A stretch of 20,278 nucleotides of DNA from a virus: positions 1 through 20,278 of the IMG/VR virus record IMGVR_UViG_3300027979_000039. One strand, written 5' to 3'. Each line of letters opens with the position of its first letter. The stretch's first letter is position 1. Positions 3,663-19,642 of this stretch are shown piece after piece. The notes under the pieces are model-generated. The model worked only from the letters and a program-made list of their open reading frames with translations. It was not told the DNA's origin and ran no database searches. The position numbers and the translations under genes were made by a program.

Positions 3663-4604
3663 ATGTCATTATATAATAAACATAGACCAAATGATTTTGA
3701 TGAAATAATCGGACAAGATTCGATTAAGAAACAATTAAAATATATTGTTTCAAAAAAGGATGATCCTTCTACAAAACATTTTTTTATATTTTCAGGACCA
3801 TATGGAACAGGGAAAACAACATTTGCTCGAGTTTTTGCAAAAGAACTTGGTTGTTCAAAATGGGACCTTACCGAAATTGATGCTGGAACAGATCGGGGAG
3901 TAGGATCAGCGGATAAATTAAAATTAAATTTGGATCTTGCCCCTTCTTCCGGAAAAATTCGAGTATGGATTATTGATGAAATTCAAGAAACCAGCAGTGC
4001 CTTTCAAGGATCACTTTTAAAAGTTTTTGAGGAACCTCCCAAACATGTTTATTTTATTTTATGTACTACAAACATTGAACAAATAAATGCTGGAATTATA
4101 AGTAGGGCAAGTGTATTTCATCTTCAAAAATTAAATCCCCCCTATATTGGAATTAAAAAAGCATTAACTGATATATGTATAAAAGAAAAAATTAAAATTT
4201 CCGATGATGTAATAAGGGAAATATGTAAAGCATCGGAAGGGGCTTACAGAAATGCCATATCAATTTTAGAATCTGTTATTGGGTTATCAGAGGAAGAAGC
4301 CCTTGATGAAATTCAAAAAACAGTTCTTTCAGGAGGGGTCTTTCGGCAATTGTGTCAATGTTTGTATAAAAAAAAGGAATGGGACATTATATGTAATGTA
4401 ATAAATGACTGTGAAAATGTAGAAAAAATGAGAAGGGGAATATGCAGTTATTTTTCAAAAATGATAGAAAAATCATATACAGATATAAGGGCAGGATTTG
4501 GAATTTATTGTTTTAAGGACCCTGCTTTTTATACAGGAAAAGCGGGATTGATGTTATCATGTTTTAAATATTTTAATGGAGATGAGCAAAAATGGATGAA
4601 TTAA
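3663..4604 (+). CDS. DnaX-like clamp loader ATPase subunit
   Basis: A 313-aa AAA+ protein closely resembling the N-terminal part of bacterial DNA polymerase III gamma/tau. It opens with MSLYNKHRPNDFDEIIGQ, the typical RP..F.E..GQ entry. The Walker A is GPYGTGKT (45-52), the Walker B is WIIDEIQ (102-108, DEIQ where cellular proteins have DEVH), and a sensor/arginine-finger SRA lies at 147-149 where SRC is usual. The zinc-binding Cys cluster of cellular DnaX is absent, as is a tau-type C-terminal extension. It would load the DnaN-like clamp encoded at 10112-11212. An AAGAAGGA site lies just ahead of ATG 3663, following the structured gap. No separate delta or delta-prime gene is recognisable here, so the protein may form the loader largely alone or with distant partners. 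Confidence 0.9.
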   Translation: MSLYNKHRPNDFDEIIGQDSIKKQLKYIVSKKDDPSTKHFFIFSGPYGTGKTTFARVFAKELGCSKWDLTEIDAGTDRGVGSADKLKLNLDLAPSSGKIRVWIIDEIQETSSAFQGSLLKVFEEPPKHVYFILCTTNIEQINAGIISRASVFHLQKLNPPYIGIKKALTDICIKEKIKISDDVIREICKASEGAYRNAISILESVIGLSEEEALDEIQKTVLSGGVFRQLCQCLYKKKEWDIICNVINDCENVEKMRRGICSYFSKMIEKSYTDIRAGFGIYCFKDPAFYTGKAGLMLSCFKYFNGDEQKWMN

Positions 4605-5092
4605 AAATTGATATATCACAATATAAGTATTTATATATTGAAATAACAAAACCGAATTTGACATTAGATTTAGACGCTCTGCATCAAGAAATGACCATGT
4701 TATCAACACTTGTTCTTGATTATGGGGATCTATTATCAGAAGTAAAATATGAACAATCTGGGTATAAATCATTATTTTGCTCAAATTTAAGAGAAAATGA
4801 TTTAAAAATAAGTGAATCAAAGGTAAAGGCATCGGTTGAAGAAGATTCTGTATATAATCAATTTCAAAAAAATGTAGATAAATTAAAATCAATTTTAGAT
4901 GCATTATATACACACAGAAAGATGTTAGAAAAACTAACTGATTTGTGGGTTAATGAATATTGGAACTCATCAAAAGATTTAAAACAAAATTTTAAAGAAA
5001 GAGGAAACATTGTAAGAAATAGGGGTGAAAAAGAAAAAGAAAAAACAAGGGAAGATATTGTTGATCAACAAAGGGAAGCACTTAATAAGTAA
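4592..5092 (+). CDS. Helical protein, candidate UvsY-type recombination mediator
   Basis: A 166-aa, mostly helical and highly charged protein that overlaps the clamp-loader gene by 13 bases and has its own GGAG site (4577-4580). The order of parts is a short N-terminal strand/helix, a central YGDLLSEVKYEQSGYKS segment, a segment ISESKVKASVEEDSVYNQF, a long helix rich in Leu and Lys, and a basic, Arg/Lys/Glu-rich tail. That layout recalls short phage proteins that bind ssDNA between SSB and RecA genes, such as T4 UvsY. Here it sits directly before the gp32-like gene and two genes before the recombinase. I see no diagnostic motif, so the UvsY idea rests on position, size and helical character. 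A clamp-loader partner is an alternative. Confidence 0.6.
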   Translation: MDELKIDISQYKYLYIEITKPNLTLDLDALHQEMTMLSTLVLDYGDLLSEVKYEQSGYKSLFCSNLRENDLKISESKVKASVEEDSVYNQFQKNVDKLKSILDALYTHRKMLEKLTDLWVNEYWNSSKDLKQNFKERGNIVRNRGEKEKEKTREDIVDQQREALNK

Positions 5093-5121
5093 ATTCTAAT
5101 TTTTTAAAAGAGAGGTAAATC

Positions 5122-6219
5122 ATGGATTATCGTCAGCAACAAGAAGGTTTAAGAAATAGAACAAATACAAATGTAGATAATAAAGATAAAAAAACATATG
5201 GGAAAAAGGGAAAAAGTATTTTTGATTTTTCCTCATTTGAAAAACCTCCAACTTTCTATAATGTAATTGAAGGGTATAATTTTCTTGATGTTCTTCCTTT
5301 TATTATAAAAAGTAAATATCATCCTCAGGAATTTAAACCTGGGCAAATTGATTACGTTATTGAGGTATATGTTCATTCTGGAATTGGATTACTTAATAAT
5401 CATTATATTTGTCTTGAAAAGACATTTGGACGACCTTGTTTTGTTTGTCAGGAAAGGCAACGATTGATTAAGGAAGAAAAGAAAAATTGGAAGGAACCCG
5501 AAGTATCAGCGCTTAATTGTTCCAGAAAAGTGCTTCATAATGTTCTTGATTTGAAAAACCTTGATAAGGGGATTCAACTTTTTTATGCGAGTTATGCTTA
5601 TTTTGAAAAGGAACTTCTTGATGCCGTTAATGATTACAAGATAAAGAAAAATCTTACAATGGCACCATTATTTGCTGATCTTTTGGAAGGCAAATCAATT
5701 TCTTTTAAAGCATCCGCTGAAAAGTGGGGAGAAATCCCTTATTTTAAGTATAAGAATTTTACTCTTGAAGATAGAACACAGGCATTTGATCCTTCAATCC
5801 TTGAAATGACAATTCCTCTTGATTCGATTTTGTATATTCCTACTTATGATGAAGTAAAAACAGCTTTTTATGATGTTGAAGGGGAACAGGAAGAGAATGA
5901 AAAAACCTCAGATACATCAATTGAGCAAAATAAACAACGGGAACAGCCTCCATTACCATCTGTTATAAACCAATTTATGCGTCCAATTGAAACACCTCTT
6001 AAACAAGAAGGGACAATGGGGATCATAGATGAAGTAAAAAATGAAAAAGAGGCAATTCAACAACTTAATCATACAGATGACGATAATTGCCCTAATAAAC
6101 ATATTTTTGCTAAAGATTGTGATACAAAACCAGAATGTATTAACTGTCCCAAATGGGAAGCGTGTTCTGATAAACAAATTGAGATGAAAAAAGCTGCGAG
6201 AAAGGCATTAAATAAGTAA
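5122..6219 (+). CDS. gp32-like single-stranded DNA-binding protein with zinc site
   Basis: This 365-aa protein resembles phage T4-type ssDNA-binding proteins. A candidate zinc site is H85, C97, C106, C109 (VHSG...ICLEKTFGRPCFVCQE); the His-12-Cys-9-Cys-3-Cys spacing is almost that of T4 gp32 (H64, C77, C87, C90). The first ~40 residues are basic and Gln-rich, as for a self-interaction arm. An acidic linker (~258-275, many Glu) follows the core, the place where partners normally bind. Unusually, the C-terminus (323-348) adds a second five-Cys cluster (CP...C...C..C...C), then ends in a basic tail, so it is not simply the acidic tail of gp32. It should coat ssDNA during replication and work with the recombinase downstream. 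The start has a strong GAGAGG site. Its stop codon lies within the left arm of the RNA structure that follows. Confidence 0.85.
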   Translation: MDYRQQQEGLRNRTNTNVDNKDKKTYGKKGKSIFDFSSFEKPPTFYNVIEGYNFLDVLPFIIKSKYHPQEFKPGQIDYVIEVYVHSGIGLLNNHYICLEKTFGRPCFVCQERQRLIKEEKKNWKEPEVSALNCSRKVLHNVLDLKNLDKGIQLFYASYAYFEKELLDAVNDYKIKKNLTMAPLFADLLEGKSISFKASAEKWGEIPYFKYKNFTLEDRTQAFDPSILEMTIPLDSILYIPTYDEVKTAFYDVEGEQEENEKTSDTSIEQNKQREQPPLPSVINQFMRPIETPLKQEGTMGIIDEVKNEKEAIQQLNHTDDDNCPNKHIFAKDCDTKPECINCPKWEACSDKQIEMKKAARKALNK

Positions 6220-6417
6220 TTATTATTTAAGGAAGTAGGTTGAGTAATGGGATCATATACGGACGTATCATATTTAAAATATGGATTAGGAATGATCCCC
6301 CTGTGAATCGGGAAAAAGCTAATAAGTGATATAATGTATCACCCCCTATAAACGTCTAAGGGGATAAAATGGGCCAAACACATGGAAGTGGCAAGATTCA
6401 CCCTTAAATAATAATTA
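6217..6417 (+). ncRNA. Multibranched structured RNA with predicted pseudoknot
   Basis: Between the ssDNA-binding and recombinase genes lies an elaborate set of complementary segments. The outer stem is perfect over 16 bp (6217-6232 with 6402-6417). Inside are GGGATCAT 6249-6256 with ATGATCCC 6292-6299 (capped by a CATATT/AATATG hairpin), GTGAATC 6303-6309 with GATTCAC 6395-6401, hairpin GTGATA/TATCAC 6326-6342, hairpin CCCCT/AGGGG 6343-6363, and a weak GCCA/TGGC pair 6373-6392. The loop of the CCCCT hairpin contains ACGTC (6352-6356), complementary to GACGT (6262-6266) inside the first arm, which predicts a pseudoknot. I recognise no known class; group I intron, tRNA and RNase P landmarks are missing. 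It could be a cis-acting leader for the recombinase gene or a stand-alone phage RNA. A 19-codon open frame (6247-6306) exists inside it but would disrupt the fold. Confidence 0.7.
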
Positions 6418-6442
6418 CACAATTTTTTATAAAGGAGTATAT

Positions 6443-7540
6443 ATGAATTTTTTTACAACGGGATCTTTTCTATTTGATAAAGCACTTGGAAATGGTTTTC
6501 CAGCAGGAAAAATAGTAAATCTTATTGGGGATAAATCAACGGGGAAAACATTAATCGCTTGTGAAACAATAGCACAAGCAAAGGCAGTTTACGGGGACAA
6601 AGTAAAATGGTTTTACGATGATGCAGAGGCGGGATTTTCATTTAATACCGAATTAATTTATGGATTTCAGATTCTTTCAGATGAAAGGAAACCATCAAGT
6701 ACAATGGAGGAACTTGATTATAATTTGGATCGATGTTTAAATCAAATTGAAGATGATGAATTATTTATATATGTAGTAGATTCCTTTGATGCTCTTTCAT
6801 CAGAAGAAGAAATGGAATTGGTTGAAAAAAGAAGAGCAGCAATTGCAAAGGGAAAAGATTTTGATGAGGGATCTTATATGTTAAAAAAGAATAAATTATT
6901 CAACCAATTTTTCCGAACACAAAGACAAAGGATTAAAGATAAAAATTGTTTACTCATTTTTATCTCTCAAATCAGGGATAATATTGGAGTAACATTTGGT
7001 AAAAAATATAAAAGATATGGCGGAAAAGCCCTTGATTTTTATAGTTCCCAAGTGGTTTGGTTATCAGAAGCAGAAAAATATGAAACCAAAGATGAACGTG
7101 CTTATGGAATAGCGGTAAAGGCATACGTTGAGAAAAATAAAATTGGAAAGCCATTTAGAACATGTTTCTTTGATATTCGATTTGATTATGGAATTGATAA
7201 TACATTTTCAAATGTCAATTTTTTGTATAATCTAAGAGACGGATTTGGTAAATTAAAAGCAGGGAAAAAATTACCTGAGATTAAATGGAATGATCAAATA
7301 TTTAATTCTCCAGATGATTTAACTTTTTTTATTGAAAAAAATGGATTTCATAAAGAATTACAAAACAAGGTGGATGAACAATGGGAAGCCCTTGATTTTG
7401 CCACTTCAATTGAAAGTACCGGGAGATGTTCAAAACTTGATTTAATGAAACAAATATATAAACAAATTCCCCCGCCCATTATTGAAGAAAATTCTTCTCA
7501 AAAAAAGACGGCGGGAAGACCTAAAAAAAATGAAAATTAA
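6443..7540 (+). CDS. RecA/UvsX-family recombinase
   Basis: A 365-aa strand-exchange ATPase. The Walker A is GDKSTGKT (29-36), the Walker B is FIYVVDSFDAL (108-118, with D113), and YDDAEAGF (58-65) supplies the Glu (E62) equivalent to RecA Glu96. IFISQIRDN further on resembles the family's Q-rich DNA-binding/sensor segment. Entry via TTGSFLFDKALGNGFPAGKI matches the RecA pattern in which a short sequence leads into GG.P.G.I. The C-terminus ends in a basic tail with an AT-hook-like AGRPKK, which could hold AT-rich double-stranded DNA. The protein would catalyse pairing for recombination-dependent replication and repair with the ssDNA-binding protein upstream and the nuclease downstream. The start has an AAAGGAG site after the structured RNA. 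Confidence 0.9.
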   Translation: MNFFTTGSFLFDKALGNGFPAGKIVNLIGDKSTGKTLIACETIAQAKAVYGDKVKWFYDDAEAGFSFNTELIYGFQILSDERKPSSTMEELDYNLDRCLNQIEDDELFIYVVDSFDALSSEEEMELVEKRRAAIAKGKDFDEGSYMLKKNKLFNQFFRTQRQRIKDKNCLLIFISQIRDNIGVTFGKKYKRYGGKALDFYSSQVVWLSEAEKYETKDERAYGIAVKAYVEKNKIGKPFRTCFFDIRFDYGIDNTFSNVNFLYNLRDGFGKLKAGKKLPEIKWNDQIFNSPDDLTFFIEKNGFHKELQNKVDEQWEALDFATSIESTGRCSKLDLMKQIYKQIPPPIIEENSSQKKTAGRPKKNEN

Positions 7541-8051
7541 AATAATAAAGGGGACTAAACCTGATACTTTTATTTTAGAAATATATGGGGGTAACCCATT
7601 ATTAACTCATTTTTTTACAATTGGAATATTTCATATAAAAAGTATTCAAAAACAAATTGAAAAAATTTTAAAAAGAACACCAATTAAAATTGCATCGAGA
7701 AAGGGAAAGGCACGTGAATTACAAAAATGGGTAGCTAATAAAGTAAGTGAAATAACAGGGATTCCATGTGGAAAAGATCAATTAATTGAATCCCGGGAAA
7801 TGGGACAAAGTGGTGTTGATGTAAAATTAATTGGTAAAGCAAAAGAGATATTTCCCTTTTCAATTGAATGTAAAGCACAAGAAAAATTAAATTTATATGA
7901 TGCAATAAAGCAAGCAATTACAAATCAACGAGAAGGAACAACCTGGTTATTGTTTTCAAAGAAAAAAAATACAAAACCCATTATAACAATGGATGCCCAA
8001 GAATTTTTTAATATCTATTCCCACTTAATAGAGAAAAATATACATGATTAA
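7530..8051 (+). CDS. PD-(D/E)XK nuclease, possible Holliday-junction resolvase
   Basis: I start this 173-aa protein at ATG 7530, which overlaps the recombinase stop by 11 bases and has GGGAAG upstream; the frame stays open to a TTG at 7482 inside the recombinase, which is a less likely start. The C-terminal two thirds carry a classical PD-(D/E)XK layout: a helix with ARELQKW (Glu), then SGVDVKL (Asp) and FSIECKAQE (Glu-x-Lys). This is followed by LYDAIKQAITNQ, the typical helix after the active site, and WLLFSKKKNTKP. The fold is shared by Holliday-junction resolvases, restriction enzymes and recombination exonucleases. A role in resolving recombination intermediates fits its place between recombinase and Rad50-like genes. 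Catalytic residues look intact; exact substrate is not decided. Confidence 0.7.
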   Translation: MKIKIIKGTKPDTFILEIYGGNPLLTHFFTIGIFHIKSIQKQIEKILKRTPIKIASRKGKARELQKWVANKVSEITGIPCGKDQLIESREMGQSGVDVKLIGKAKEIFPFSIECKAQEKLNLYDAIKQAITNQREGTTWLLFSKKKNTKPIITMDAQEFFNIYSHLIEKNIHD

Positions 8052-9177
8052 GTCAATTGAAATAACTAATTTACAATCACATGACCATACAATTTTAAAT
8101 TTTTGTAAATCCACGAATGCCATTACCGGGCCTTCTGATAGTGGAAAATCTGCAATTTTCAGGGCGTTTGGATTTGTAATGAATAATGATCCAAATAATG
8201 TTGATGATTTATTATCAAATTGGTGTAAGGACACGGATGAAGTTAAAGTAAAAATTGAAACATATGAAGGAAATATAATTGAAAGGATTCGATCAAAAAC
8301 AAAAAACATGTATGTTCTTAATAGTCAAGAATTAAAAGGATTTGGTCAAAATGTACCAGATGCTGTACAAAAAATATTAAATATTTCGGAATTGAATTTT
8401 CAAACACAATATCAAATGCCCTTTCTTCTTTCATACAGTCCCCCGGAAATATCAAGATTTATTAATAAATTAATTGATCTTGAAGATATTGATATTTTTT
8501 ATAGTGAAGTTGAACGGGATAAAAGGGATGTTATTTCATCATTAAAAGCATGGAAAAAACAACTGGAACTTGAAACTATAAAACTCGAGCAATATTCATA
8601 TTTAGAAAATATACAAAAAGAACATTTGCAGGTTAAAGAAATATATGATCGAATTGAATATATAAAAGCATGGATGACCTCATTAATAAATTTAATGGCA
8701 AGGATATCCGAGTTAAAAAGTAAAAAAAGAAATCTTTCAAAAATTTTAATACAAAAAAATGAAATTGAAAATTGTTTGTCATCAATTGAATCGATTAATA
8801 ATATTTTATTCAAAAAAGAACAAATAGAGAAACGAATAAACTTAATTCAAGTACTTAGTAATAAAATATATATTTTGTCACTTGAAAAGAAAAAATATAA
8901 ACAGATATTAAAATATAATTTAGAAATAAAAAAATTAAATGAAATACATAATAATATTGAACAAAAGATTATTGAAATTAAGCAAAAAATAAAAGAATTA
9001 GAACAAATTGAAACATTATCTGGAAAAATTAAACGATTATTAATACAAAAAGATGAGATAACAAAACAAAAAATCTCCTTTGAAAAGGAAATAAATATAT
9101 TACTTATAGAAAATGAAATTAAATGTTGTCCGTTTTGTGGGGCAGTATTAAAGATAGGAAATAATTGTGAATGCTAA
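8044..9177 (+). CDS. Rad50/SMC-like half ATPase ending in a CxxC zinc motif
   Basis: The 377-aa protein starts like Rad50 or SbcC (MIKSIEITNLQSHDHTILNF), has a Walker A GPSDSGKS (29-36) and a probable Q-loop near FQTQYQMP (119-126). A long Lys/Glu/Ile/Leu coiled coil runs from ~155 to 355. It then ends in CCPFCGAVL (C362, C365) plus C375 and C377, a likely zinc site placed where Rad50 has its zinc hook. The returning coil, signature motif and Walker B that would complete the ATPase are absent, and I find no other gene in the window that supplies them. Phage proteins of this half-Rad50 form are known to me as uncharacterised AAA-family ATPases. It overlaps the nuclease gene by 8 bases, suggesting a nuclease-ATPase pair. 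Confidence 0.8.
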   Translation: MIKSIEITNLQSHDHTILNFCKSTNAITGPSDSGKSAIFRAFGFVMNNDPNNVDDLLSNWCKDTDEVKVKIETYEGNIIERIRSKTKNMYVLNSQELKGFGQNVPDAVQKILNISELNFQTQYQMPFLLSYSPPEISRFINKLIDLEDIDIFYSEVERDKRDVISSLKAWKKQLELETIKLEQYSYLENIQKEHLQVKEIYDRIEYIKAWMTSLINLMARISELKSKKRNLSKILIQKNEIENCLSSIESINNILFKKEQIEKRINLIQVLSNKIYILSLEKKKYKQILKYNLEIKKLNEIHNNIEQKIIEIKQKIKELEQIETLSGKIKRLLIQKDEITKQKISFEKEINILLIENEIKCCPFCGAVLKIGNNCEC

Positions 9178-10102
9178 AAGTAAATTAAATATTTTTGTTG
9201 ATTCAGGGGCCTTTACTGCATTTACACAGGGAGAAAAAATTGATATAAATGAATATATTTCTTTTTTAAAAGAAAATGAAAAAGAAATATTAATGGCTGC
9301 TAATTTAGATGTTATCGGTGGAACGGAAGAAACACAAAAACAAACACAAATAAATCAAGAAATAATAAATAATGCAAATTTAAATATAAAAGTTCTCCCT
9401 TGTTTTCATTATGGAGAAGATTTTTCAATATTAAAATTATATGTTGAAAAATATGAATATATAGCACTTGGTGGAATGGCAAAAATGACAAAAACAGATA
9501 CTGAATCAGTACATAATTGGTTAATAAAATGTTTTGATATTATATGTAATGAAAAGGGATATCCGAAAGTAAAGGTACACGGATTTGGAATAACAACAAT
9601 TAGTTTAATGTTTGCTTATCCCTGGGAATCAGTTGATTCAGTACGACCAATATTAGTTGCTGGATTTGGAGATATTATGATAGCAACAAAAAAAGAAAAT
9701 AAATGGGATTTTCTTAATAATAGAATTGTGCATATGGCTTATATGGAAGAAAATTCAAAAAAAATAAATAGTTCTGATCGATTTTTTTATTACCATCTTC
9801 TTCCAAAGGACTCATTATTAAAAAAAGAAATTGATGAATATTTTGATACATTTTTTCCAAAAAAATATACAAGAATGGGGATATCAGAATATATAAATGT
9901 CCCTTCAAATCATATAAAAAAAGAAAATGAAAGATGGATAGTTCCAAATAAAAAAATAGAAATTATAAAAGAGGCCGGTTTAGCTAATCATTATATGTAT
10001 AGAAGACGAATAAATTTTTTCTATTTTAGAAAAATATCTGAATATCTTACACAAAATCCTTCGGTTTTTGTAAGAAAACCTAAAAAATTTGGATTTTTTT
10101 AA
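9167..10102 (+). CDS. tRNA-guanine transglycosylase (TGT/DpdA)-like enzyme
   Basis: A 311-aa protein started at GTG 9167, which overlaps the previous stop and has AGGA ~9 bases upstream; no in-frame ATG would preserve the first motif. Three segments align with the TIM-barrel TGT family: VDSGAFTAFTQG (D12; TGT DSGGYQ with the base-binding Asp), YIALGGMAKM (98-107; TGT GGLAVGE) and ESVDSVRPILVAG (D157; TGT FDCVLPTR with the nucleophilic Asp). TGT enzymes swap guanine for 7-deazaguanines in tRNA; the DpdA branch does so in DNA of some phages. The classical TGT C-terminal zinc site is not visible, favouring a DpdA-like or other divergent role. No 7-deazaguanine synthesis gene is evident here. Neighbours are DNA-replication genes, which supports a DNA substrate but does not prove it. 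Confidence 0.7.
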   Translation: MNAKSKLNIFVDSGAFTAFTQGEKIDINEYISFLKENEKEILMAANLDVIGGTEETQKQTQINQEIINNANLNIKVLPCFHYGEDFSILKLYVEKYEYIALGGMAKMTKTDTESVHNWLIKCFDIICNEKGYPKVKVHGFGITTISLMFAYPWESVDSVRPILVAGFGDIMIATKKENKWDFLNNRIVHMAYMEENSKKINSSDRFFYYHLLPKDSLLKKEIDEYFDTFFPKKYTRMGISEYINVPSNHIKKENERWIVPNKKIEIIKEAGLANHYMYRRRINFFYFRKISEYLTQNPSVFVRKPKKFGFF

Positions 10103-10111
10103 GGAGAATTT

Positions 10112-11212
10112 ATGAATACCATTAATAAAAAACAATTAATTGAAGCTTTAAATATTGCAAGTTTGGCAGTAACAGATAAAGATGTTGTAGCGGGATCTGA
10201 TTGTTATTTTTTTTCAAAGGATGTAATAAAAACACACAAAGACACCACCGCCTGTTATGTTATTTTTAACACAGGGATTGAAGGGATAGTAAAGGCATCG
10301 TATCTTAATAATATATTAAGTACTTTTCCTTATGATGAAATTGTTCTTTCAGTTGAGGAAAATAATTTAATCATTTCATCAATTTCAAATACCCTTTGTT
10401 TTAAATTATTGATGAAAAAGATAAAAAATGAATTTAATATTGATTTCGATTTTAATCAAACGTTATTTGAAGAATTGCCCGATAATTTTACTACTTTATT
10501 ATCAATGGCGGCCTCATCTGCAAGTAAGGATATTCAGCAAAAGGGACTTATTTGTGTTAATATAAAGGATGATGTTATGTTTTCGGGATCAACTTTTAGT
10601 GTTTGTAAAATAAATTTATCAAAACAAATTACACAAATGCAAATTCCGGTAAATTTAGTTGATCCAATAAAAAAGATTTCCCCTACATATTATTATAAAT
10701 CAAATGAATCGGGATGGATTCATTTAATGAAAAATGGACCTGATTATAAAGGAATTGTAAGTTGCATAAGTTTTAGACATGGAATTGAATCATTATCAGA
10801 TGAAGAATATGAGACAATTATTGGTCTTGTTGAAAATATTGATGAAAATGCTATTGATATTTCTCAACTTATTTCTGACGAATTTATTGAAATACTAAAT
10901 TCAGTTGTTATTTGTTCTCATGATCAAGCGGATGAATTAAATCCGTATTATAATGTCCTTATCACTTATAATGGTAAATTTCTAATTGAATGTAAATCAA
11001 TATCTAATAAGATAGGATCATCTTGTTATTCATTAGAAAAAAATCTTAATGTAAAGGATTTTAGATTTTATATAAATCCGATTTTACTAAAAAATATGAA
11101 AAATAAATGTAATGAATTAAAGGTTCTTTTATGTGACAATAGAATTATTTTTATTGGGAGTAATTTTAAATACAGTGTGTGTTTACTAAATTCATATTTA
11201 GATAATAAATAA
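10112..11212 (+). CDS. DnaN-like DNA polymerase sliding clamp
   Basis: This 366-aa protein has the length of bacterial beta clamps. Its start (MNTINKKQLIEALNIASLAV), an early strand pair (TTACYVIFNTGIEGIVKASYLNNIL), mid-protein QKGLICVNIKDDVMFSGSTFSVCKI and the ending KNKCNELKVLLCDNRIIFIGSNFKYSVCLLN follow the clamp pattern of repeated helix-strand units across three domains. Similarity is weak, as usual for phage clamps. The clamp would encircle DNA and tether the polymerase encoded immediately downstream, being loaded by the DnaX-like ATPase at 3663. A strong AAGGAG site precedes ATG 10112, and the next gene begins one base after its stop. Confidence 0.7.
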   Translation: MNTINKKQLIEALNIASLAVTDKDVVAGSDCYFFSKDVIKTHKDTTACYVIFNTGIEGIVKASYLNNILSTFPYDEIVLSVEENNLIISSISNTLCFKLLMKKIKNEFNIDFDFNQTLFEELPDNFTTLLSMAASSASKDIQQKGLICVNIKDDVMFSGSTFSVCKINLSKQITQMQIPVNLVDPIKKISPTYYYKSNESGWIHLMKNGPDYKGIVSCISFRHGIESLSDEEYETIIGLVENIDENAIDISQLISDEFIEILNSVVICSHDQADELNPYYNVLITYNGKFLIECKSISNKIGSSCYSLEKNLNVKDFRFYINPILLKNMKNKCNELKVLLCDNRIIFIGSNFKYSVCLLNSYLDNK

Positions 11213-11213
11213 T

Positions 11214-13856
11214 ATGTTTTTTGATAGTGATCAGGTAACTAAAAAACTACAGCAGGGAAATAATAATACAGAAAAGGGACCAAGTGCAGTAAAAGAAAAA
11301 AAAGGAACGTATTCATGTGAGTCATGTAAATTAAATTTAGTATGTAAATCCCCCAAAATGTCCTATACCGGACTTGGTGAAAAGGGAATTTTATTTATTG
11401 GACAATTCCCTGGTCCTATTGAAGACAATCAAAATGAACAATTCATTGGAATTACAGGGCAATATCTTCGATCAATTTTAAAATCTTTTCATTTTTCGCT
11501 TGATCGGGATGGATGGAAAGATAATGCCATTAAATGTTCTCCTTATATGGATTCGGTAACAAATAAACATGTAAAATGTTGTCGCCCATTTTTGTTTGAT
11601 GCAATAAAAGAACTTCAACCAAAAAAAATAATATTATTTGGACAAGAGGCCCTTGATTCAGTTATTGGAAATTATATTGATAGTGTTGGGAAAATATCAA
11701 AATGGGTTGGATGGAAAATTCCTGATCAAACATTAAAAACATGGATTTTTCCAATGTATCATCCTTCTTTTATTCTTCGCCAAAAAGAAGAAAAGCAATT
11801 TGCAAACTGTTCTCCCCCTGCTGAAAAATTATTTATTCAACATTTAAAAGAGGCAATTTTTTGGGATGTCCCTTTTCCTGATTTTAGTAATGATAAAGAA
11901 AAAATTTCAATAATTTTAAATTTATCAGATGCAAAGAATTATTTAAATAAACTTCTTTTTGAAAAACCTCCGGTTATATTTTTTGATTATGAAACTACCG
12001 GGTTAAAGCCGTATCGAAAAGGACATGAAATAATTTGTGTTTCTATTTCAACGGGACCTTATAATGCAACTGCTTTTCCATTTTTTAAAGATGATGAATT
12101 TCGTTTTTTATATCAGCAGGTTCTTCAATCTGAACAAATACAAAAAGGAGCACAAAATTTAAAATTTGAAGATACATGGACAAATGTAATTTGTGGCCAT
12201 GAAGTATCCCCATGGTTATTTGACACAAAAACTTCAGCACATATTCTTGACAATCGTCCCAGTACTACGGGATTAAAATTTAGGACATATGTTGATTTTG
12301 GGGTAACCGGATATGATGATGATGTTCACCCTTATATTAGTTCCCCTATTGAAGAAGAAGAAAAATACGGATGTAATGGATTTAATAGGATGAAGGAATT
12401 CTTTGAAAAAAATCCTGAAAAGGTATTATTATATTGTGGATTGGATTCAATGTATGAATTTCGAGAATATGAAAAACAATTAGTAGAAATTGAAAAAAAT
12501 CCTGTTCTTAAAAAAGGAATTGATTTATTTACACAGGGAAATATTGAACTTGCATATGTTGAAAGAAATGGGATTAGTACAAATTATGATTACTTTATAG
12601 AACAACAAGGGTATTTAGATAATAGAATTAAAAAAATAGGGGAAAGGATTCAGGAAAGTGATGAAATTATAAAATGGAATGAAATTCACCCCGATATAAA
12701 ATTTAATCCAAATTCTGATCCCCAACTTATAAATTTGTTTAATACAATTTTACATTATGAAAAAACAAAAGAAACGACCAAAGGAAATTATTCCGTTGAT
12801 AAAGAAGTCCTCGAAAAAATTGATTCCCCCTTTTGTTCAGATTTATTAAATTTAAGAAGATTTTCAAAGGCAAATGAAACATATATTTCCAATATATTAA
12901 AAGAATCAATTGATGGGGTTATTCATTTTTTTCTTAATTTAGATACTGCCCGAACATACAGATCCAATTCATTAAATCCAAATATTCAGAATATACCAAA
13001 AAGGGATAAATTATTATTATATCTTATAAGAAGCGGATTTATCCCATCAACGGGAAATTTTTTAATGGAAGTTGATTATAGTGGAATTGAAGTACGTTTT
13101 AGTGCATGTTATCATCATGATCCTTTAATGATTAATTATATACAAGATCCAACTACTGATATGCATCGAGATGAAGCTGCATCTTTATTTAAATTAGATA
13201 AACAACAAGTAACAAAAAAATTAAGATACATCACCAAAAATGAGTGGGTTTTTCCACAATTTTATGGATCGTATTATAAACAGTGTGCCCCAAATTTATG
13301 GAACTCAATTCAAAATGAAAAAACTGCTGATGGAATATTAGTTATAAAACATTTAGAAAAATACGGTATTTTTGATTATTATGATTTTGAAGAGCATGTA
13401 AGAAAATGTGAAGAAATTTTTTGGAAGCAAAAATTTAAAGTATATACACAATGGAAAGAGGAAACATGGCAAAATTATCTTAGTACGGGGAAAGTTTCCT
13501 TATTATCAGGATTTGAATGTACTGGGATAATGAGAAAAAATAATGTGCTTAACTATCCAATACAAGGGACGGCTTTCCATTGTTTATTAAAATCTTTAAT
13601 AACAATAAATAAATTTTTGAGACAAAATAAATATAAAAGTAAAATTGTTGCTCAAATACACGATAGTATTATTTTTGACATGGTTCCAAATGAAACGATG
13701 GAATTGGTACCAATTATAAGAAAAATAATGTGTGAGGATATAAGAAAGGAATGGGAATGGATTATTGTCCCATTAGATATTGAAATTGAATGCTCTGAAA
13801 TAAATGGTAACTGGGCAAAAATGTATCCTATTTCCAATTTTTATAAGGAGTTATAA
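11214..13856 (+). CDS. Family A DNA polymerase with N-terminal family 4-like UDG domain
   Basis: The 880-aa replicase has three modules. Residues ~30-215 form a family 4 uracil-DNA-glycosylase-like domain: Fe-S-type cysteines C35, C38, C108 and C122/C123, motif GQFPGPIED (63-71) and YHPSFILR (182-189). The glutamate of the usual GEAPG motif is Gln (Q64), so excision activity is doubtful. Residues ~250-420 are a 3'-5' exonuclease (FFDYETTGL with D258 and E260; NLKFED 315-320; YCGLD 407-411). Residues ~570-880 are the PolA polymerase: NIQNIPKRD, motif A EVDYSGIEVR (D621), a variant motif B (R671, K675, F680, Y684, with one extra residue compared with E. coli PolA) and motif C QIHDSII (D817). 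No 5'-nuclease domain is present. It starts one base after the clamp gene. As I recall, SPO1-like phages have comparable fusions. Confidence 0.9.
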   Translation: MFFDSDQVTKKLQQGNNNTEKGPSAVKEKKGTYSCESCKLNLVCKSPKMSYTGLGEKGILFIGQFPGPIEDNQNEQFIGITGQYLRSILKSFHFSLDRDGWKDNAIKCSPYMDSVTNKHVKCCRPFLFDAIKELQPKKIILFGQEALDSVIGNYIDSVGKISKWVGWKIPDQTLKTWIFPMYHPSFILRQKEEKQFANCSPPAEKLFIQHLKEAIFWDVPFPDFSNDKEKISIILNLSDAKNYLNKLLFEKPPVIFFDYETTGLKPYRKGHEIICVSISTGPYNATAFPFFKDDEFRFLYQQVLQSEQIQKGAQNLKFEDTWTNVICGHEVSPWLFDTKTSAHILDNRPSTTGLKFRTYVDFGVTGYDDDVHPYISSPIEEEEKYGCNGFNRMKEFFEKNPEKVLLYCGLDSMYEFREYEKQLVEIEKNPVLKKGIDLFTQGNIELAYVERNGISTNYDYFIEQQGYLDNRIKKIGERIQESDEIIKWNEIHPDIKFNPNSDPQLINLFNTILHYEKTKETTKGNYSVDKEVLEKIDSPFCSDLLNLRRFSKANETYISNILKESIDGVIHFFLNLDTARTYRSNSLNPNIQNIPKRDKLLLYLIRSGFIPSTGNFLMEVDYSGIEVRFSACYHHDPLMINYIQDPTTDMHRDEAASLFKLDKQQVTKKLRYITKNEWVFPQFYGSYYKQCAPNLWNSIQNEKTADGILVIKHLEKYGIFDYYDFEEHVRKCEEIFWKQKFKVYTQWKEETWQNYLSTGKVSLLSGFECTGIMRKNNVLNYPIQGTAFHCLLKSLITINKFLRQNKYKSKIVAQIHDSIIFDMVPNETMELVPIIRKIMCEDIRKEWEWIIVPLDIEIECSEINGNWAKMYPISNFYKEL

Positions 13857-13858
13857 AT

Positions 13859-14617
13859 ATGAAAGATTTAATGATTGTATCATGTGAAAGAGCAGGAACA
13901 CATTTTCTTATAGATAGTATTATATGGAATTTTCCAAAATTTAATAAAAAAAGAATTGATATCCCTGCAAATGGGGAACAAAAAAAATTTGAAAAATTTT
14001 TAAAAAAATATGAGCCCTCCGGACATAATATAATTAAGAGTCATCACCAGTTTGAATTTTTTGAACCAATTATTGATATTGTAAAAGAAAAATTTAATAT
14101 AATTTATATTATGAGAGAAGGAAAAGATTCAATGGTTTCATGGCATTACTATTTTAATGATGCTAATTCATGTGAATTTCCATTTTCAAAAACGGTTACT
14201 GATTTAATGATGAAAAATCCAACAAATTATTCATTTGATAATGCTTATTCAAAAATTAAATCTGAAAATATGATACAAAGATGGGAAACTCATGTAATTT
14301 CATGGGTAATGAATGCAAAAAAAGCATCTGCATTGATAATTACTTATGATGATTTATACATTTATTTTTCAAAAATAATTAATAGAATTAGTGAATTTAT
14401 AGATGAATCCCCGGTACACAAAAAAACAAGACCTCTTTTGTTTAATGGAAGTGGGATTTTCCCGAGAAAAGGGATAATAGGGGATTGGTTAAATCATTTT
14501 ACTTCATTAGATGAAAATTATTTTTATAGTCATATAAATTCAACAATTTTATACAACGAAATATGGGACAAAGAAGCAAGATTAACAATAATACATACCC
14601 CGAATAAAGAAGAGTAA
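13859..14617 (+). CDS. PAPS-dependent sulfotransferase-family protein
   Basis: The 252-aa protein retains the main signatures of the Sulfotransfer_1 fold. SCERAGTHFL (8-17) matches the 5'-phosphosulfate loop, IIKSHHQF (58-65) the KTHLP segment with a likely catalytic His (H62), and IIYIMREGKDSMVSWHYYF (81-99) the 3'-phosphate-binding region. HVISWV (145-150) and ITYDDL (161-166) follow, and PRKGIIGDWLNHF (202-214) matches the conserved RKG..GDWKN.F motif. Such enzymes move sulfate from PAPS to hydroxyl or amine groups. The acceptor is unknown: glycan, modified nucleotide or protein are possible. No signal peptide is seen, so it acts in the cytoplasm. The ribosome binding site AAGGAG lies inside the polymerase stop region, so it is co-transcribed with the replicase. 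Sulfotransferases are uncommon in phages. Confidence 0.85.
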   Translation: MKDLMIVSCERAGTHFLIDSIIWNFPKFNKKRIDIPANGEQKKFEKFLKKYEPSGHNIIKSHHQFEFFEPIIDIVKEKFNIIYIMREGKDSMVSWHYYFNDANSCEFPFSKTVTDLMMKNPTNYSFDNAYSKIKSENMIQRWETHVISWVMNAKKASALIITYDDLYIYFSKIINRISEFIDESPVHKKTRPLLFNGSGIFPRKGIIGDWLNHFTSLDENYFYSHINSTILYNEIWDKEARLTIIHTPNKEE

Positions 14618-14625
14618 TTAAAAAT

Positions 14626-15264
14626 ATGAAAATAACAATTGAAAAAAGAAATGAGATTATTCTTGATCATATCGGTTTAATTTGGAATGTAATTAGTCAT
14701 TTTACAACAAATTCAATTTTTGATAAACAGGATTATTTTCAAGTGGCATCAATAGGGATGATAAAAGCAATTGAATCTTTTGATAAGAATGAAGGAATTA
14801 AATTAGCAACATGGATGTATAAATGTATGAATTTTGAAATTCTTAGGGCTATAAAATGGAGGAGGAAATATAATAAATTTCCATATGTTTCAATAAGAAT
14901 TCCTGAATTTGAAAATGACCGGCAAGAAGATTTATATTTTAGAGAAAAAATTGAAAATTTTGAGGATTCACTTAATCTACAAGATAAAATGTTTCCAATT
15001 GATTTGGTTGAGGAACGAATAAATAATAATGAAATGTCTATTCATTTACAAAGGTATATAAATACTCTTACAGAAAAAGAACAAATAGTAATAAAAATGT
15101 GTTATGGAATTAATAGAAATGAATCATCAAATAACCAAGAAATAGGAAATGTCCTTAATTTGACAAGGGAACGTATAAGACAAATACATGATCAAGCAAT
15201 TAGAAAATTAAGAAATAAAATGGTAACAAATAAAGAATATAAAAAATTAAAGGAGTCATTATGA
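14626..15264 (+). CDS. Sigma-70-family transcription factor (first of two)
   Basis: A 212-aa sigma-like protein. Residues ~33-85 resemble region 2 (DYFQVASIGMIKAIESFD, KLATWMYKCMNFEI, then the basic KWRRK), which contacts core polymerase and the -10 element. A ~55-residue acidic linker replaces region 3. Residues ~145-200 are region 4, a helix-turn-helix: LTEKEQIVIKMCYG, NNQEIGNVLNLTRERIRQIHDQAIRKLR. The TRERIRQI segment is almost identical to primary sigma factors, which suggests that it recognises a -35 element. It should redirect host RNA polymerase to phage middle or late promoters. An AAGAAGAG site sits upstream, and its stop overlaps the next start (ATGA). Confidence 0.88.
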   Translation: MKITIEKRNEIILDHIGLIWNVISHFTTNSIFDKQDYFQVASIGMIKAIESFDKNEGIKLATWMYKCMNFEILRAIKWRRKYNKFPYVSIRIPEFENDRQEDLYFREKIENFEDSLNLQDKMFPIDLVEERINNNEMSIHLQRYINTLTEKEQIVIKMCYGINRNESSNNQEIGNVLNLTRERIRQIHDQAIRKLRNKMVTNKEYKKLKESL

Positions 15265-16127
15265 GAGTTGCCTTTTCAATTATTTTAAATGGGAAACATC
15301 ATTTATTACATGACAATTATTATGATTTTATTACAAAAAATTTTGATTTATGGATTATTGCAGAAGGGGCGAGTCTTTCACAGGGATCTACTAATTGGTG
15401 TAAAAAAATGCCCGATAAATATCATAATAAAGGACATTCAGTTGATGGAACTGTTAAATTTTTAGAAGAACTTTGTAATAATAATGAGAATGTTTTTTTA
15501 TCAAATCATTATACATTTAATAACAGTTATATTGATAACAATACAAAATTTTGGCATTCAAAAGATGATCAAGTTAATTCGTGTATAAATGTTCTTCTTC
15601 ATTATTATTTAGGTAAATATAATTATAATTATAAATCACAAAGAAAAGAAAAAATATTTTTATGGGAAATCGATATTGATGAGCAATGGGATTTACCATC
15701 AATTGAACAAGCGGAAAATGATTTGATTATTTCCGGAAATACAATGGGGGAATTCCTTTGTAATTATTGGGTAGGTGTAAATTTACAGGCAAAAGGGGAA
15801 TGGGGGGAAGGAAAATTACTACCATATCGAAGATTATGGATATGGAATTTTACAAAATTTAAACAACATGAGCCCCCTATATTAATTGACACTGATAAAG
15901 GTATATTATTAAATCAAAAATTTGATCATTATGCCTATTATTTTAAACAGGATGTTGAATTTAAAAATGATTGGTATTCAGGACATGAAGATATTTTAGC
16001 AAAATGGAAAATACTTCAACAAGAATCGATTAATAAACCAATCGGTTGGAAATGTTCAATAAATGCTCTATTAAATGAAAATTCATACTGGGGGAAATCA
16101 AATACACATATTGAAAGGATAAGATAA
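15261..16127 (+). CDS. GT-A-like glycosyltransferase (GT17-like family)
   Basis: This 288-aa protein resembles a phage/bacterial family distantly related to GT17. It begins VAFSIILNGKHHLLHDNYY, followed by LWIIAEGA and GSTNWCKK. Its most diagnostic part is LWEIDIDEQW (134-143), with D138, D140 and E141 as a DxDE metal/sugar-nucleotide site. Toward the end, RRLWIWNFTKFKQHEPPIL and FDHYAYYFKQDVEFKNDWYSGHE form a conserved histidine/aromatic region that I associate with this family. The acceptor is unknown. It starts on the overlapping ATGA of the sigma gene with an AAAGGAG site, and its stop overlaps the TS-like start (TAATG). This tight coupling to a nucleotide-metabolism enzyme makes a modified-base acceptor worth considering beside a cell-surface one. 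Confidence 0.75.
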   Translation: MRVAFSIILNGKHHLLHDNYYDFITKNFDLWIIAEGASLSQGSTNWCKKMPDKYHNKGHSVDGTVKFLEELCNNNENVFLSNHYTFNNSYIDNNTKFWHSKDDQVNSCINVLLHYYLGKYNYNYKSQRKEKIFLWEIDIDEQWDLPSIEQAENDLIISGNTMGEFLCNYWVGVNLQAKGEWGEGKLLPYRRLWIWNFTKFKQHEPPILIDTDKGILLNQKFDHYAYYFKQDVEFKNDWYSGHEDILAKWKILQQESINKPIGWKCSINALLNENSYWGKSNTHIERIR

Positions 16128-16894
16128 TGAAAATACAAACAATAAAAGCAGTAACAATAAATGATTTATGGTTCCAAGCAATGAGTTTACTTTTAAATTT
16201 AGGAAGTAAAACAAATTTAACCTATATAATTGAAGAAGGATCATATATCGGACAAAAACGTCTTGAATATGATTTTCTTTCATTTCAAATAACTTTTCCA
16301 GAAACAAGGCCATTTATAGTAATGCCTGAAACTATTAAAACTCCTCCTCCATTTGATAATGAGTTTTTAGAACAATATTTAAATTATATTATTACTACCT
16401 ATAAACCAAAAAATACAATTTATACATATGGGGAAAGATTATTTTCAGATCTTGGTAATTTTATTAATTTAGAAAAAGGTGAAATACAATCAGATATAAA
16501 ATATGAAATTTTTAAAAATAGAAAAACAAATCAAATACAAAATGTGATAAAAAAACTTAAAAAAACAAAAAATACAAATCAATGTTGTACCACCATTGGA
16601 ATCCCGTCTGATATTATACTTAATGATCCTCCATGTTGTAGGATTATCGATTTTAATATGAAAGGAAATCGATTAAATATGTTTTTATATTTTCGATCCT
16701 GGGATTTATGGGGGGGACTTCCCCTTAACCTTGCTGCCTTTCAAATATTGAAAGAAATGATGGCAGATGAATTAAATGTATCACCAGGACAAACCTTTGC
16801 AAGTAGTAAAGGATTACACTTATATGACCATTGTTGGGAAGTTGCAAAAATATTAACTCATAAAGAACAAAATTTTAAAATAATTGGGGAATAA
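16127..16894 (+). CDS. Thymidylate synthase/pyrimidine hydroxymethylase-family enzyme
   Basis: The 255-aa protein has the core of the thymidylate synthase fold. NDPPCCR (166-172) contains the catalytic Cys (C170, TS PPCH). LYFRSWDLWGGLPLNLAAF (187-205) matches TS QRS.D...GLPFNI.., keeping the Arg-Ser, the Asp and the Asn (N201) that in TS selects dUMP over dCMP. GLHLYDH (229-235) matches the HIYLNH nucleotide-binding motif, with Asp in place of Asn. The N-terminal half, ending in IYTYGERL (98-105), is more like archaeal TysY and phage variants than E. coli ThyA. Retained Asn argues for a dUMP substrate, so it would be a thymidylate synthase or a dUMP hydroxymethylase as in SPO1. The reaction cannot be told from sequence alone. 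It precedes a nucleotidase gene by one base. Confidence 0.8.
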   Translation: MKIQTIKAVTINDLWFQAMSLLLNLGSKTNLTYIIEEGSYIGQKRLEYDFLSFQITFPETRPFIVMPETIKTPPPFDNEFLEQYLNYIITTYKPKNTIYTYGERLFSDLGNFINLEKGEIQSDIKYEIFKNRKTNQIQNVIKKLKKTKNTNQCCTTIGIPSDIILNDPPCCRIIDFNMKGNRLNMFLYFRSWDLWGGLPLNLAAFQILKEMMADELNVSPGQTFASSKGLHLYDHCWEVAKILTHKEQNFKIIGE

Positions 16895-16895
16895 A

Positions 16896-17495
16896 ATGAG
16901 TAATATTGGAATTGATTTAGATGGAACTTTAATTGAATTTTTAACAGGATTCAAAAAACAAATTGCAATGGATTTTAAAATAAAAGAAAAGGATCTTCCT
17001 CAACAAATTGATTACTTTTGGTCAAATTTTCCACAGGAATTTAAAAATAGGGTTGAAGAATTAATAGAAGATCCCTATTTTATGGGACCAGAAAATATAA
17101 TAACCGATATATACACTATTGATGCCCTTCTTCATTTTAAAGAAGAAGGACATAAAATTATAGTAATAACGGCAAGATCCGAGAAAATTAGAAAACAAAC
17201 AGAAGAAATTATAAATAGGTTTTTTCCAAATTTAATTGATAAATTAATTTTAGTAAAAAATGTAACTGATAAAAAAGAAAAAATGATTGAAGAAAAAATA
17301 AATTATTGGATTGATGATGCCCCTCATGGTTGTACGATATCAATTGAGTTAGGACTCCCAACATTTTTATTATATAATAAATACACGGAAGTGTATTCCA
17401 AATCTTTATTTATAAAATATAGGGAAGGAATTGATTTTTGGGCAGTAAAATCAATATACGAAATTTATTTAAAATATTCAATTTTTAGATATTAA
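16896..17495 (+). CDS. HAD-family 5'(3')-deoxyribonucleotidase
   Basis: Started at ATG 16896 behind a GGGGA site; an in-frame TTG at 16884 would overlap the previous gene and only adds four residues. The 199-aa protein has all HAD motifs: IGIDLDGTLI (D7, D9), IVITARSEK (motif II Thr), the Lys in LVKNVTDKKEK (motif III) and YWIDDAPHG (motif IV, DD). The layout matches the 5'(3')-deoxyribonucleotidase (NT5C) family, which removes phosphate from dNMPs. Directly following the TS-like gene, it may clear an unwanted nucleotide such as host dTMP, or adjust pools so a modified nucleotide replaces the normal one. Several phages carry such enzymes. Confidence 0.8.
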   Translation: MSNIGIDLDGTLIEFLTGFKKQIAMDFKIKEKDLPQQIDYFWSNFPQEFKNRVEELIEDPYFMGPENIITDIYTIDALLHFKEEGHKIIVITARSEKIRKQTEEIINRFFPNLIDKLILVKNVTDKKEKMIEEKINYWIDDAPHGCTISIELGLPTFLLYNKYTEVYSKSLFIKYREGIDFWAVKSIYEIYLKYSIFRY

Positions 17496-17510
17496 ATACA
17501 TAATATATAT

Positions 17511-17684
17511 ATGAGAAATTTAAAAATTGAATATGAAACGGATACAATAAATGCAAGAATGGAAAATGCATTAATATATCTTTTAAACATTTTTGGATGG
17601 AGGATTGATAATATTAATTTTTATATGCCTTTATGTTCAAAAACTGGGTATCGTCTTTTATTTTTTAAAAAGAAGGATAATTAA
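17511..17684 (+). CDS. Small hypothetical protein, 57 aa
   Basis: A short frame from ATG 17511 to TAA 17684, two bases before the next ATG, that fills an otherwise unexplained 191-base gap. It encodes a 57-residue protein with a hydrophobic/aromatic core (ALIYLLNIFGWRIDNINFY) and a basic end (FFKKKDN). Upstream sequence is A/T only (acataatatatat) with no good ribosome binding site, so translation may depend on the upstream gene or be weak. The A/T block contains no obvious -35 box. The next gene's AAGAAGGA site lies inside its last codons. No family recognised. Confidence 0.5.
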   Translation: MRNLKIEYETDTINARMENALIYLLNIFGWRIDNINFYMPLCSKTGYRLLFFKKKDN

Positions 17685-17686
17685 AA

Positions 17687-17974
17687 ATGGCAATAGGAGT
17701 AAAAGCATTACAAAAGTATAATAAAGGGGAACCTTTATCGATGAAACAATCAGTATATGCTAAGTGTGCTGAATGTATGGGATCTTTTGAAGATGGTGCC
17801 TGTGATTGTGAAGTTACAGGGTGCCCATTGTATCCATATATGCCATATGGAACAATTAAAAAGAAAAAGGCAATAAAAATGGATAAAGAAAGTGTTGAAA
17901 AGAGAAAAGAACGGGGAAAACAATTGGCAACGGGTAGGAAGAAACGATTATCAGAATCATCTGATATACAATAA
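17687..17974 (+). CDS. Small Cys-rich phage protein, probable zinc binder
   Basis: This 95-aa protein has a compact cysteine block: C27, C30, C39, C41 and C46 in KCAECMGSFEDGACDCEVTGCPLYPYMPYG. The closing CPLYPY.PYG with a preceding DC...C pattern is one I recognise from many short phage proteins of unknown function. It probably binds one zinc ion. The C-terminal 40 residues are very basic (KKKKAIK, EKRKERGK, RKKR) and could bind nucleic acid. An AAGAAGGA site precedes the start. It sits with two small proteins and a sigma-like factor, so a regulatory role is plausible, but no function can be assigned. Confidence 0.75.
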   Translation: MAIGVKALQKYNKGEPLSMKQSVYAKCAECMGSFEDGACDCEVTGCPLYPYMPYGTIKKKKAIKMDKESVEKRKERGKQLATGRKKRLSESSDIQ

Positions 17975-18001
17975 TTTTTATTTTTAAAAGAGGAGAAAAA
18001 A

Positions 18002-18448
18002 ATGCCTGCATATGATAAGAATGGTATCCCGATACTCGGTCGAAATTCAGAGGAGCAAGCAAAGGTTAATGAATTAATTCTTCAAATAAAGCAGGGGAGA
18101 GCCTATATTCAGCAACTTGAAGCATATTGTGGGCAACTTCAACAATCCCTTATGAATAATGGTAATATTTTAGCTTTCCTTCTTCATAAGGAAAATAATA
18201 GGGTCAGAATTTCAATTGATGATATGAAGAATTTTGTAAAAGATAATCAAGGAAAAATTCGATCATATAAAGACACATCAACTAAATCAATTATTGTAGA
18301 GCTTATTCCCCTTACAAAAGAGGAAATGGAAAAAATTAATGAATCTCAATCTGAAAATACTTCTCCCGTTGAGCAGTCTAATTCAATCTCAAATGATGAA
18401 TCAGTAAAAGAAGTGAGTAATGAAGAAGGAAACAAAATTAACGGATAA
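18002..18448 (+). CDS. Hypothetical coiled-coil protein with acidic Ser-rich tail
   Basis: A 148-aa protein with an excellent GAGGAG site before ATG 18002. Residues ~17-50 form a likely coiled coil (EEQAKVNELILQIKQG, then Gln/Leu-rich QQLEAYCGQLQQSL). A short central strand/helix region (LAFLLHKENNRVRISIDDMKNFVK) follows, and the last ~35 residues are Ser, Glu and Asn rich, consistent with a flexible tail. No catalytic motif or membrane segment is evident. The frame overlaps the second sigma-like gene by 29 bases, so the two are probably translated together. Function unknown. Confidence 0.7.
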   Translation: MPAYDKNGIPILGRNSEEQAKVNELILQIKQGRAYIQQLEAYCGQLQQSLMNNGNILAFLLHKENNRVRISIDDMKNFVKDNQGKIRSYKDTSTKSIIVELIPLTKEEMEKINESQSENTSPVEQSNSISNDESVKEVSNEEGNKING

Positions 18449-18956
18449 ACAGCAAGAGTATTTTAATTTAAACAGTAAATTAGTCCATTATGTAATTCAT
18501 AATTTATCATCAAAATTTAAGTTTATTCCATATGATATTTTATATGATGGGGGAATTGATGGATTAATTTTTGCAATAAAACATTATATTGAAAGTAAGG
18601 GAACATTTGCTACTTACGCTCGAAAATGTATTTATTGCCGGATTTTATCGGCAGTAAATACATTTGTAACAAAAGATTGTAATAAAGTTGATATAAATGA
18701 TCTTTCAATTATTGATAATACAGATTATGAAGATAATGTTCTAAAAAAAGAATATAATAAAAAAATATTTGACATAATATATAATATACTGAATGAAAAA
18801 GAAAAAATGTTTGTATTTCTACGATACGAACAGGATTATTCATTAAATGAAATAGCGGAGGTCATGGGTAAGTCCCTGTTTACCATTAATTTATTAAAAA
18901 ATAAAGTACATAAGTTAATTAAAGATAAATTAAAAGAGGAAATTTATACTTTATAA
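18420..18956 (+). CDS. Second sigma-70-like factor, compact
   Basis: The 178-aa protein looks like a reduced sigma factor. Residues ~38-80 resemble region 2 (YDGGIDGLIFAIKHYIESKGTFATYARKCIYCRI, matching the DL.Q.G..GL..A...YD...G.F.TYA family pattern). Residues ~125-175 resemble region 4 (LNEKEKMFVFLRYEQDYSLNEIAEVMGKSLFTINLLKNKVHKL). The region 4 recognition helix (KSLFTINLLKNK) differs from the TRERIRQI helix of the other factor, so the two probably read different promoters. It starts 29 bases inside the previous gene with a weak AGAAGTGAG site. The likely role is late or middle promoter control; a sigma-appropriating coactivator is an alternative. Confidence 0.8.
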   Translation: MKKETKLTDKQQEYFNLNSKLVHYVIHNLSSKFKFIPYDILYDGGIDGLIFAIKHYIESKGTFATYARKCIYCRILSAVNTFVTKDCNKVDINDLSIIDNTDYEDNVLKKEYNKKIFDIIYNILNEKEKMFVFLRYEQDYSLNEIAEVMGKSLFTINLLKNKVHKLIKDKLKEEIYTL

Positions 18957-19042
18957 TAAAAAATTAATCGATCAAAAAAGTAATATGTGTCGATATATAT
19001 AATAGAGGGGGAAAACAGAAACCTTTAACAAAGGAGAAAAAA
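18957..19042 (+). promoter_or_regulatory. Leader of lytic transglycosylase: possible -10 box and RBS-masking hairpin
   Basis: This 86-base gap has a perfect TATAAT at 18998-19003 but no TTGACA-like sequence 17 bases upstream (AAAAAG is there), so promoter status is weak. Just before the start codon, CCTTT (19022-19026) is complementary to AAAGG (19030-19034) with a 3-base AAC loop. The right arm overlaps the AAAGGAG ribosome binding site, so it could hold translation down. The three-base loop and short stem make the effect modest. Confidence 0.35.
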
Positions 19043-19621: not shown

Positions 19622-19642
19622 TATCATAAAGAAAGGTTAGAT

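Follow-up and report, generated by a model that had tools for sequence, protein, structure and literature searches.

A structured intercistronic element of putative function between the ssb-like and recA-like genes of a phage

The gap between an ssb-like gene and a recA-like gene of a phage holds a 203-base element (6216-6418), in which a perfect 17-bp stem closes a multibranched set of helices. The helices are real and rare, and they stand in a tight operon at a junction where near relatives keep a small gene. We file the stretch as a structured intercistronic element of putative function. Our favoured reading, a tentative one, is that the ssb-recA mRNA may carry it as a structured element acting in cis, the long stem serving as a processing site or as insulation for recA.

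The helices and the operon around them

The window, meaning the whole stretch of DNA analysed, is a virus record of 20,278 bases. It is present unchanged within an 82,517-base IMG/VR contig (3300009078_000075, hereafter the 82.5-kb contig), the only other record found with the element. All 20 listed genes (3663-19852) lie on the + strand, and 18 of their 19 junctions measure at most 86 nt. The sole exception, of 223 nt, lies between the ssb-like and recA/UvsX-like genes, where the features are as follows.

5122-6219, + strand: ssb-like gene, upstream of the element; weak gp32 match, under the Pfam cut-off
6216-6232, + strand: 5' arm of P1, the 17-bp closing stem; contains the ssb stop codon TAA (6217-6219)
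6247-6306, + strand: putative micro-ORF of 19 codons within the element, read from sequence
6249-6299, + strand: P2 domain, an 8-bp stem (6249-6256/6292-6299) enclosing P2a and P2b
6257-6260/6265-6268, + strand: P2a, 4 bp, weak (pair probability 0.18-0.25)
6262-6266, + strand: candidate pseudoknot strand GACGT, weakly supported
6269-6274/6278-6283, + strand: P2b, 6 bp, within P2
6303-6401, + strand: P3 domain, a 7-bp stem (6303-6309/6395-6401; pair probability 0.60-0.62)
6326-6342, + strand: P4 hairpin, 6 bp (6326-6331/6337-6342)
6343-6363, + strand: P5 hairpin, 5 bp (6343-6347/6359-6363)
6352-6356, + strand: candidate pseudoknot strand ACGTC, weakly supported
6369-6407, + strand: putative micro-ORF of 12 codons within the element, its degenerate pattern seen in this phage only
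6373-6392, + strand: P6 hairpin, 4 bp (6373-6376/6389-6392; pair probability 0.59-0.72)
6402-6418, + strand: 3' arm of P1, pairing perfectly with 6216-6232
6423-6437, + strand: six consecutive T (6423-6428), then the recA-like gene's ribosome-binding site AAAGGAG (6431-6437), both immediately beyond P1
6443-7540, + strand: recA/UvsX-like gene, downstream of the element; PF00154 (E 8e-27) and phrog_97 (E 3e-42)

An earlier note on this DNA had described six or more nested helices fitting together, and every helix it named is present. Its 8-bp and 7-bp internal stems are P2 and P3, and its two adjacent hairpins are P4 and P5, which abut without a linker. The closing stem is perfect as described but one pair longer than the 16 bp given, and its left arm does lie at the ssb stop codon. 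P3 adjoins P1 on the 3' side, again with no linker, and the two strands of P1 are 169 nt apart.

The downstream gene is clearly assigned to recA by its profile matches. We call the upstream gene ssb-like because of its sub-cut-off gp32 match together with its alignment to the ORF upstream of recA in other phages; its protein has no PHROG match and none in a search against phages. The 12-codon micro-ORF was considered as a gene and rejected, as its degenerate pattern matches this phage alone. Reading of TGA as tryptophan was likewise rejected, since TGA serves as the stop codon in 8 of the 64 ORFs that are 150 aa or longer.

No terminator is called at the element, and no promoter call marks it as a separate transcription unit; promoter-like matches between 5000 and 8000 number 6, fewer than in shuffled sequence (16.1). 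It would therefore be read within a longer mRNA. Nor is an intrinsic terminator (a short G/C-rich hairpin with a T run at once after it) called there, though the six T stand 4 nt past P1. A/U-rich sequence runs from the end of the fold to the recA start.

Several other features of this phage were recorded. The ORF at window positions 11214-13856 is a family A DNA polymerase with an N-terminal uracil-DNA-glycosylase-like domain, and an ORF at 9167-10102, amid replication genes, matches the queuine tRNA-ribosyltransferase PHROG. The 82.5-kb contig has one tRNA gene, tRNA-Lys(ttt), at L042 1399-1474. The strongest-folding place of the contig lies outside the window, at about 33.1-34.1 kb of G001. 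It holds two near-identical hairpins of about 60 nt (GGGCAAAGGGGAACC...GAAACCC...CTTTGCCC; L132 9723-9755 and 9817-9849), A/T-rich palindromes and three tandem AACAATAAGC repeats, and it looks like a replication origin. An Rfam search over 601 bases of this place gave sub-threshold matches only, and a search for the hairpin pattern in other viral contigs found none.

Rarity of the fold and a DNA-level alternative

We compared the fold with shuffled and genomic controls. At best, 6217-6417 folds with -51.4 kcal/mol (z -3.35), an energy that none of 200 shuffles equalled. The full element (6216-6418) gives z -4.0 over 60 shuffles; among 250 random windows taken from the 82.5-kb contig, one does as well. 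The P1 arms are the longest perfect inverted repeat of that contig within a span of up to 400, the next measuring 14, and none of 20,000 dinucleotide shuffles reached 17 bp (maximum 16). When energy is regressed on dinucleotide content, the element ranks 44th on the + strand and 17th on the opposite strand among 1650 windows. The earlier claim that base composition hardly explains such dense pairing holds against shuffles, for both the energy and the arms; the regressed rank weighs against it.

The opposite strand folds at least as well as the + strand, with z -3.91 for 6217-6417 and z -5.7 for 6216-6418. Our hand-drawn structure has 57 Watson-Crick pairs and no G-U pair; the best computed fold has 61 and 1. 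Long-evolved RNA usually has G-U pairs and a strand preference. The lack of G-U pairs in the hand structure and the equally good fold of the opposite strand make a DNA palindrome a live rival, while some Watson-Crick bias is expected because the helices were chosen as perfect matches.

The GACGT/ACGTC pseudoknot, predicted earlier between two loops, is weakly supported. The letters are there, but pairing of this kind is near chance expectation: a 5-bp loop-loop match of some sort turns up in 61% of loop shuffles, and one with at least three G-C pairs in 4.2%.

No relative of the element came to light. Rfam 15 has no family above its gathering threshold, and at E up to 10 it gives two chance-level minus-strand matches, in line with the earlier remark that the fold matches no RNA class familiar to its author. 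An exact 15-base inner block occurs in 28 stretches of viral contigs and an exact 17-base block in 4; once their surroundings are considered, the sole occurrences that look like the element belong to this same phage. A covariance model, built on two identical rows (a single sequence) so that its misses show little, found in 21 sources the element only, with 14 other rows at or below 12.5 bits (best E 0.035); the two of these whose alignments we viewed are one place held twice, a plain hairpin. In 50 related records the same model gave no match with E up to 1. Compared with phages, the element hit 50 records, none covering 80% of the query (the 20 matches listed cover 13%), and compared with plasmids it hit 16 (the 10 matches listed cover 13-15%). 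RecA and the polymerase, as single queries against viral contigs, returned this phage only, and none of the paper titles listed by a literature search concerned this element. What stands of the earlier proposal is a dense fold with no Rfam family; its picture of an evolved functional RNA with a pseudoknot is conjectural, and the purely Watson-Crick pairing of the hand structure, an opposite strand that folds at least as well and the near-chance pseudoknot speak against it.

These data bear on a possible, though unlikely, alternative at the DNA level. The stretch might be a MITE-like, non-autonomous insertion between ssb and recA with 14-17-bp terminal inverted repeats, its RNA fold being a by-product. 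Perfect repeats do close the element, 203 bp from end to end, the hand-drawn pairs are all Watson-Crick, both strands fold equally, and relatives hold differing content at this site. The ends are compatible with a duplicated TA (TA-ATTATTATTTAAGG...CCTTAAATAATAAT-TA), but TA is the only target-site duplication candidate and the palindrome itself supplies it. The insertion reading also has to contend with the lack of a second copy in the 82.5-kb contig, with the two exact inner blocks, whose matches in the viral contigs led back, in context, to this phage only, with inner helices P2-P5 that terminal repeats leave unexplained, and with a left repeat that coincides exactly with the ssb stop codon.

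The ssb-recA junction in other phages

We used a RecA profile of three rows to find comparable loci. It returned 234 encoding stretches, and we retained the best 80. This phage is one of them (L045), the next is at most 48% identical to it over the best segment, and no close relative is present among these best 80 of 234. Between ssb and recA, six of the seven best other loci (L046-L052, all but L051) carry a small ORF of one family, about 53-77 aa long. Four of the six match Pfam HTH_17 with E from 9e-6 to 0.005, all below the cut-off, and those of L050 and L052 match no Pfam family; 'helix-turn-helix-like' is therefore a fair but weak name for the putative family. That six of the seven best RecA matches carry such a gene at this junction is a new observation. 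Four loci came from genome contigs, of which all but L131 were viewed. A similar order of ssb, small ORF and recA, with RecA 43% identical, occurs in L128 (PRDI01000110.1), filed under a Thorarchaeota MAG; this is perhaps a phage contig binned with that MAG.

A profile of the six small proteins found nothing significant in this phage's gap and nothing in the 82.5-kb contig. We considered the gap as a pseudogene of the small gene and rejected it: the profile scores -0.3 bits (E 2.3), which makes the gap the top non-member row but barely better than wrong frames of the relatives, even though one frame is suggestive (KYGLG...stop...GKKL). As far as these searches see, this phage would have a structured stretch at the place where its nearest known relatives carry the small gene, which it would lack.

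A wider survey took in 86 loci. Nine without a detectable ssb or recA match were excluded, leaving 77 with this phage included, and their gap lengths are rough because RecA starts were guessed from the farthest ATG. An ORF of at least 50 aa starts in the gap of 38 loci, and 13 gaps are 10 nt or shorter. Another 13, this phage among them, have gaps of at least 150 nt in which no ORF of at least 50 aa starts, and at least two of these (L046 and L048) do contain the small ORF, starting elsewhere or shorter. Other loci have a short gap, or one with ORFs or different sequence in it; the gap measures 3 nt in Edwardsiella phage ZHS and contains a thymidylate kinase gene in Vibrio phage SSP002. Several loci have a terminator-like hairpin directly after ssb (for example L054, L058, L059, L063 and L079). 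Across the gaps of the 76 other loci, perfect repeats that enclose at least 100 nt reach 11 bp at most, so conserved coding sequence at this junction does not produce the stem as a side effect.

The survey also bears on the improbable reading that the stretch has no function and is what is left where relatives have a small gene, its repeats having arisen by chance or by a local DNA duplication-inversion. In its favour are the failure to find that gene here, the weak pseudoknot and the regressed rank of 44th. The 17-bp arms, unseen in 20,000 shuffles, and a z score matched in 1 of 250 windows argue against it, as does a gap without trace of the small gene. Equally improbable is the stronger proposal of a new class of pseudoknotted, multibranched phage RNA that replaces the helix-turn-helix-like gene and controls recombinase expression within the mRNA.

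Possible roles and known systems

RNase III enzymes cut duplexes like a 17-bp stem stacked on 7 more pairs, and it is this likeness that leads us to prefer an element that is processed or insulates. During termination of ssb translation, the ribosome would sit over the left arm of P1. Once it leaves the stop codon, P1 could close, stacked on P3, and tie off a compact multibranched domain, with the recA ribosome-binding site staying just outside the fold. The long perfect stem would suit an RNase III-type nuclease that is specific for double strands, and cleavage or protection there may part the ssb message from the recA message and determine how stable they are or in what ratio they occur. That the stretch is transcribed, folds in the cell, is processed or affects recA at all is our inference from the sequence.

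In favour of this cis-acting role we count the rare arms and fold, the exceptionally wide gap in an operon of tightly packed genes on one strand, the lack of promoter or terminator calls that would set it apart as its own unit, and the lack of so long a stem in the gaps of the 76 other loci. Against it we count that no homolog was found, hence no covariation, along with the well-folding opposite strand, the missing G-U pairs and the rank of 44th of 1650. A ribosome-driven switch for recA was rejected: with a modelled ribosome on the ssb stop, the unpaired probability of the recA binding site rises from 0.29 to 0.38 and that of the start codon falls from 0.89 to 0.67, only a modest change.

The closing stem also suits a doubtful alternative, in which a stable small RNA is excised from the mRNA at this stem and acts elsewhere as a decoy or antisense RNA. 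Such an RNA would be compact and cut out at a processing-type stem, as here, but the element has no promoter or terminator of its own, no relatives were found and no target is known.

One sequence by itself cannot decide between a functional RNA and a DNA insertion. If it is a functional RNA, this phage would have an RNA element between two recombination genes where relatives have a small putative DNA-binding protein, and the case would open a route to studying what determines the SSB to RecA ratio in phages. If instead it is an insertion, it is one more inverted repeat resembling an RNA in a single genome.

Among known systems, a retron ncRNA was rejected because no PF00078 reverse transcriptase matches in the 82.5-kb contig, and group I introns and small ribozymes because Rfam has no match. 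RNase III processing sites in phage T7 early mRNA are local hairpins. The element resembles them in placing a long stem between phage genes of one mRNA, and the length of P1 fits such a site, but here the stem strands lie far apart.

Correia-type MITEs are short elements with terminal inverted repeats in multi-copy families, and RNase III cleaves Correia transcripts at the repeats (PMC10969869). Our element shares the shortness and the terminal repeats, whereas those of the source are multi-copy and no second copy was found here. The STAXI motif (RF01728) is described as a tandemly repeated pseudoknot, often near SSB genes, whose authors also weighed a DNA-level role (PMC2864571). Both are structured elements near an SSB gene; unlike STAXI, ours is one multibranched domain with no Rfam match.

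In T4 and RB69, the translational operator of gene 32 is located upstream of that gene itself, and published accounts describe a pseudoknot component of about 28 nt and an A/U-rich stretch, both bound by T4 gp32 (PMC535899, PMC3014915). By analogy, our element might be an operator bound by the phage's own SSB, with excess SSB nucleating on the fold and spreading over the A/U-rich stretch at the recA start. This is unlikely on balance. The upstream gene is ssb-like with a weak gp32 match, and A/U-rich sequence follows the fold up to recA, but the T4 operator precedes gene 32 itself whereas our element follows ssb, and its pseudoknot is weak. A T4-type operator in the strict sense, with a pseudoknot upstream of the ssb that it controls as in those accounts, was rejected. 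Compared with the operator described there, the element differs in its 203-nt length and in lying downstream of ssb and upstream of recA, and it is alike in being a structured mRNA element beside a phage SSB gene that is followed by an A/U-rich start region.
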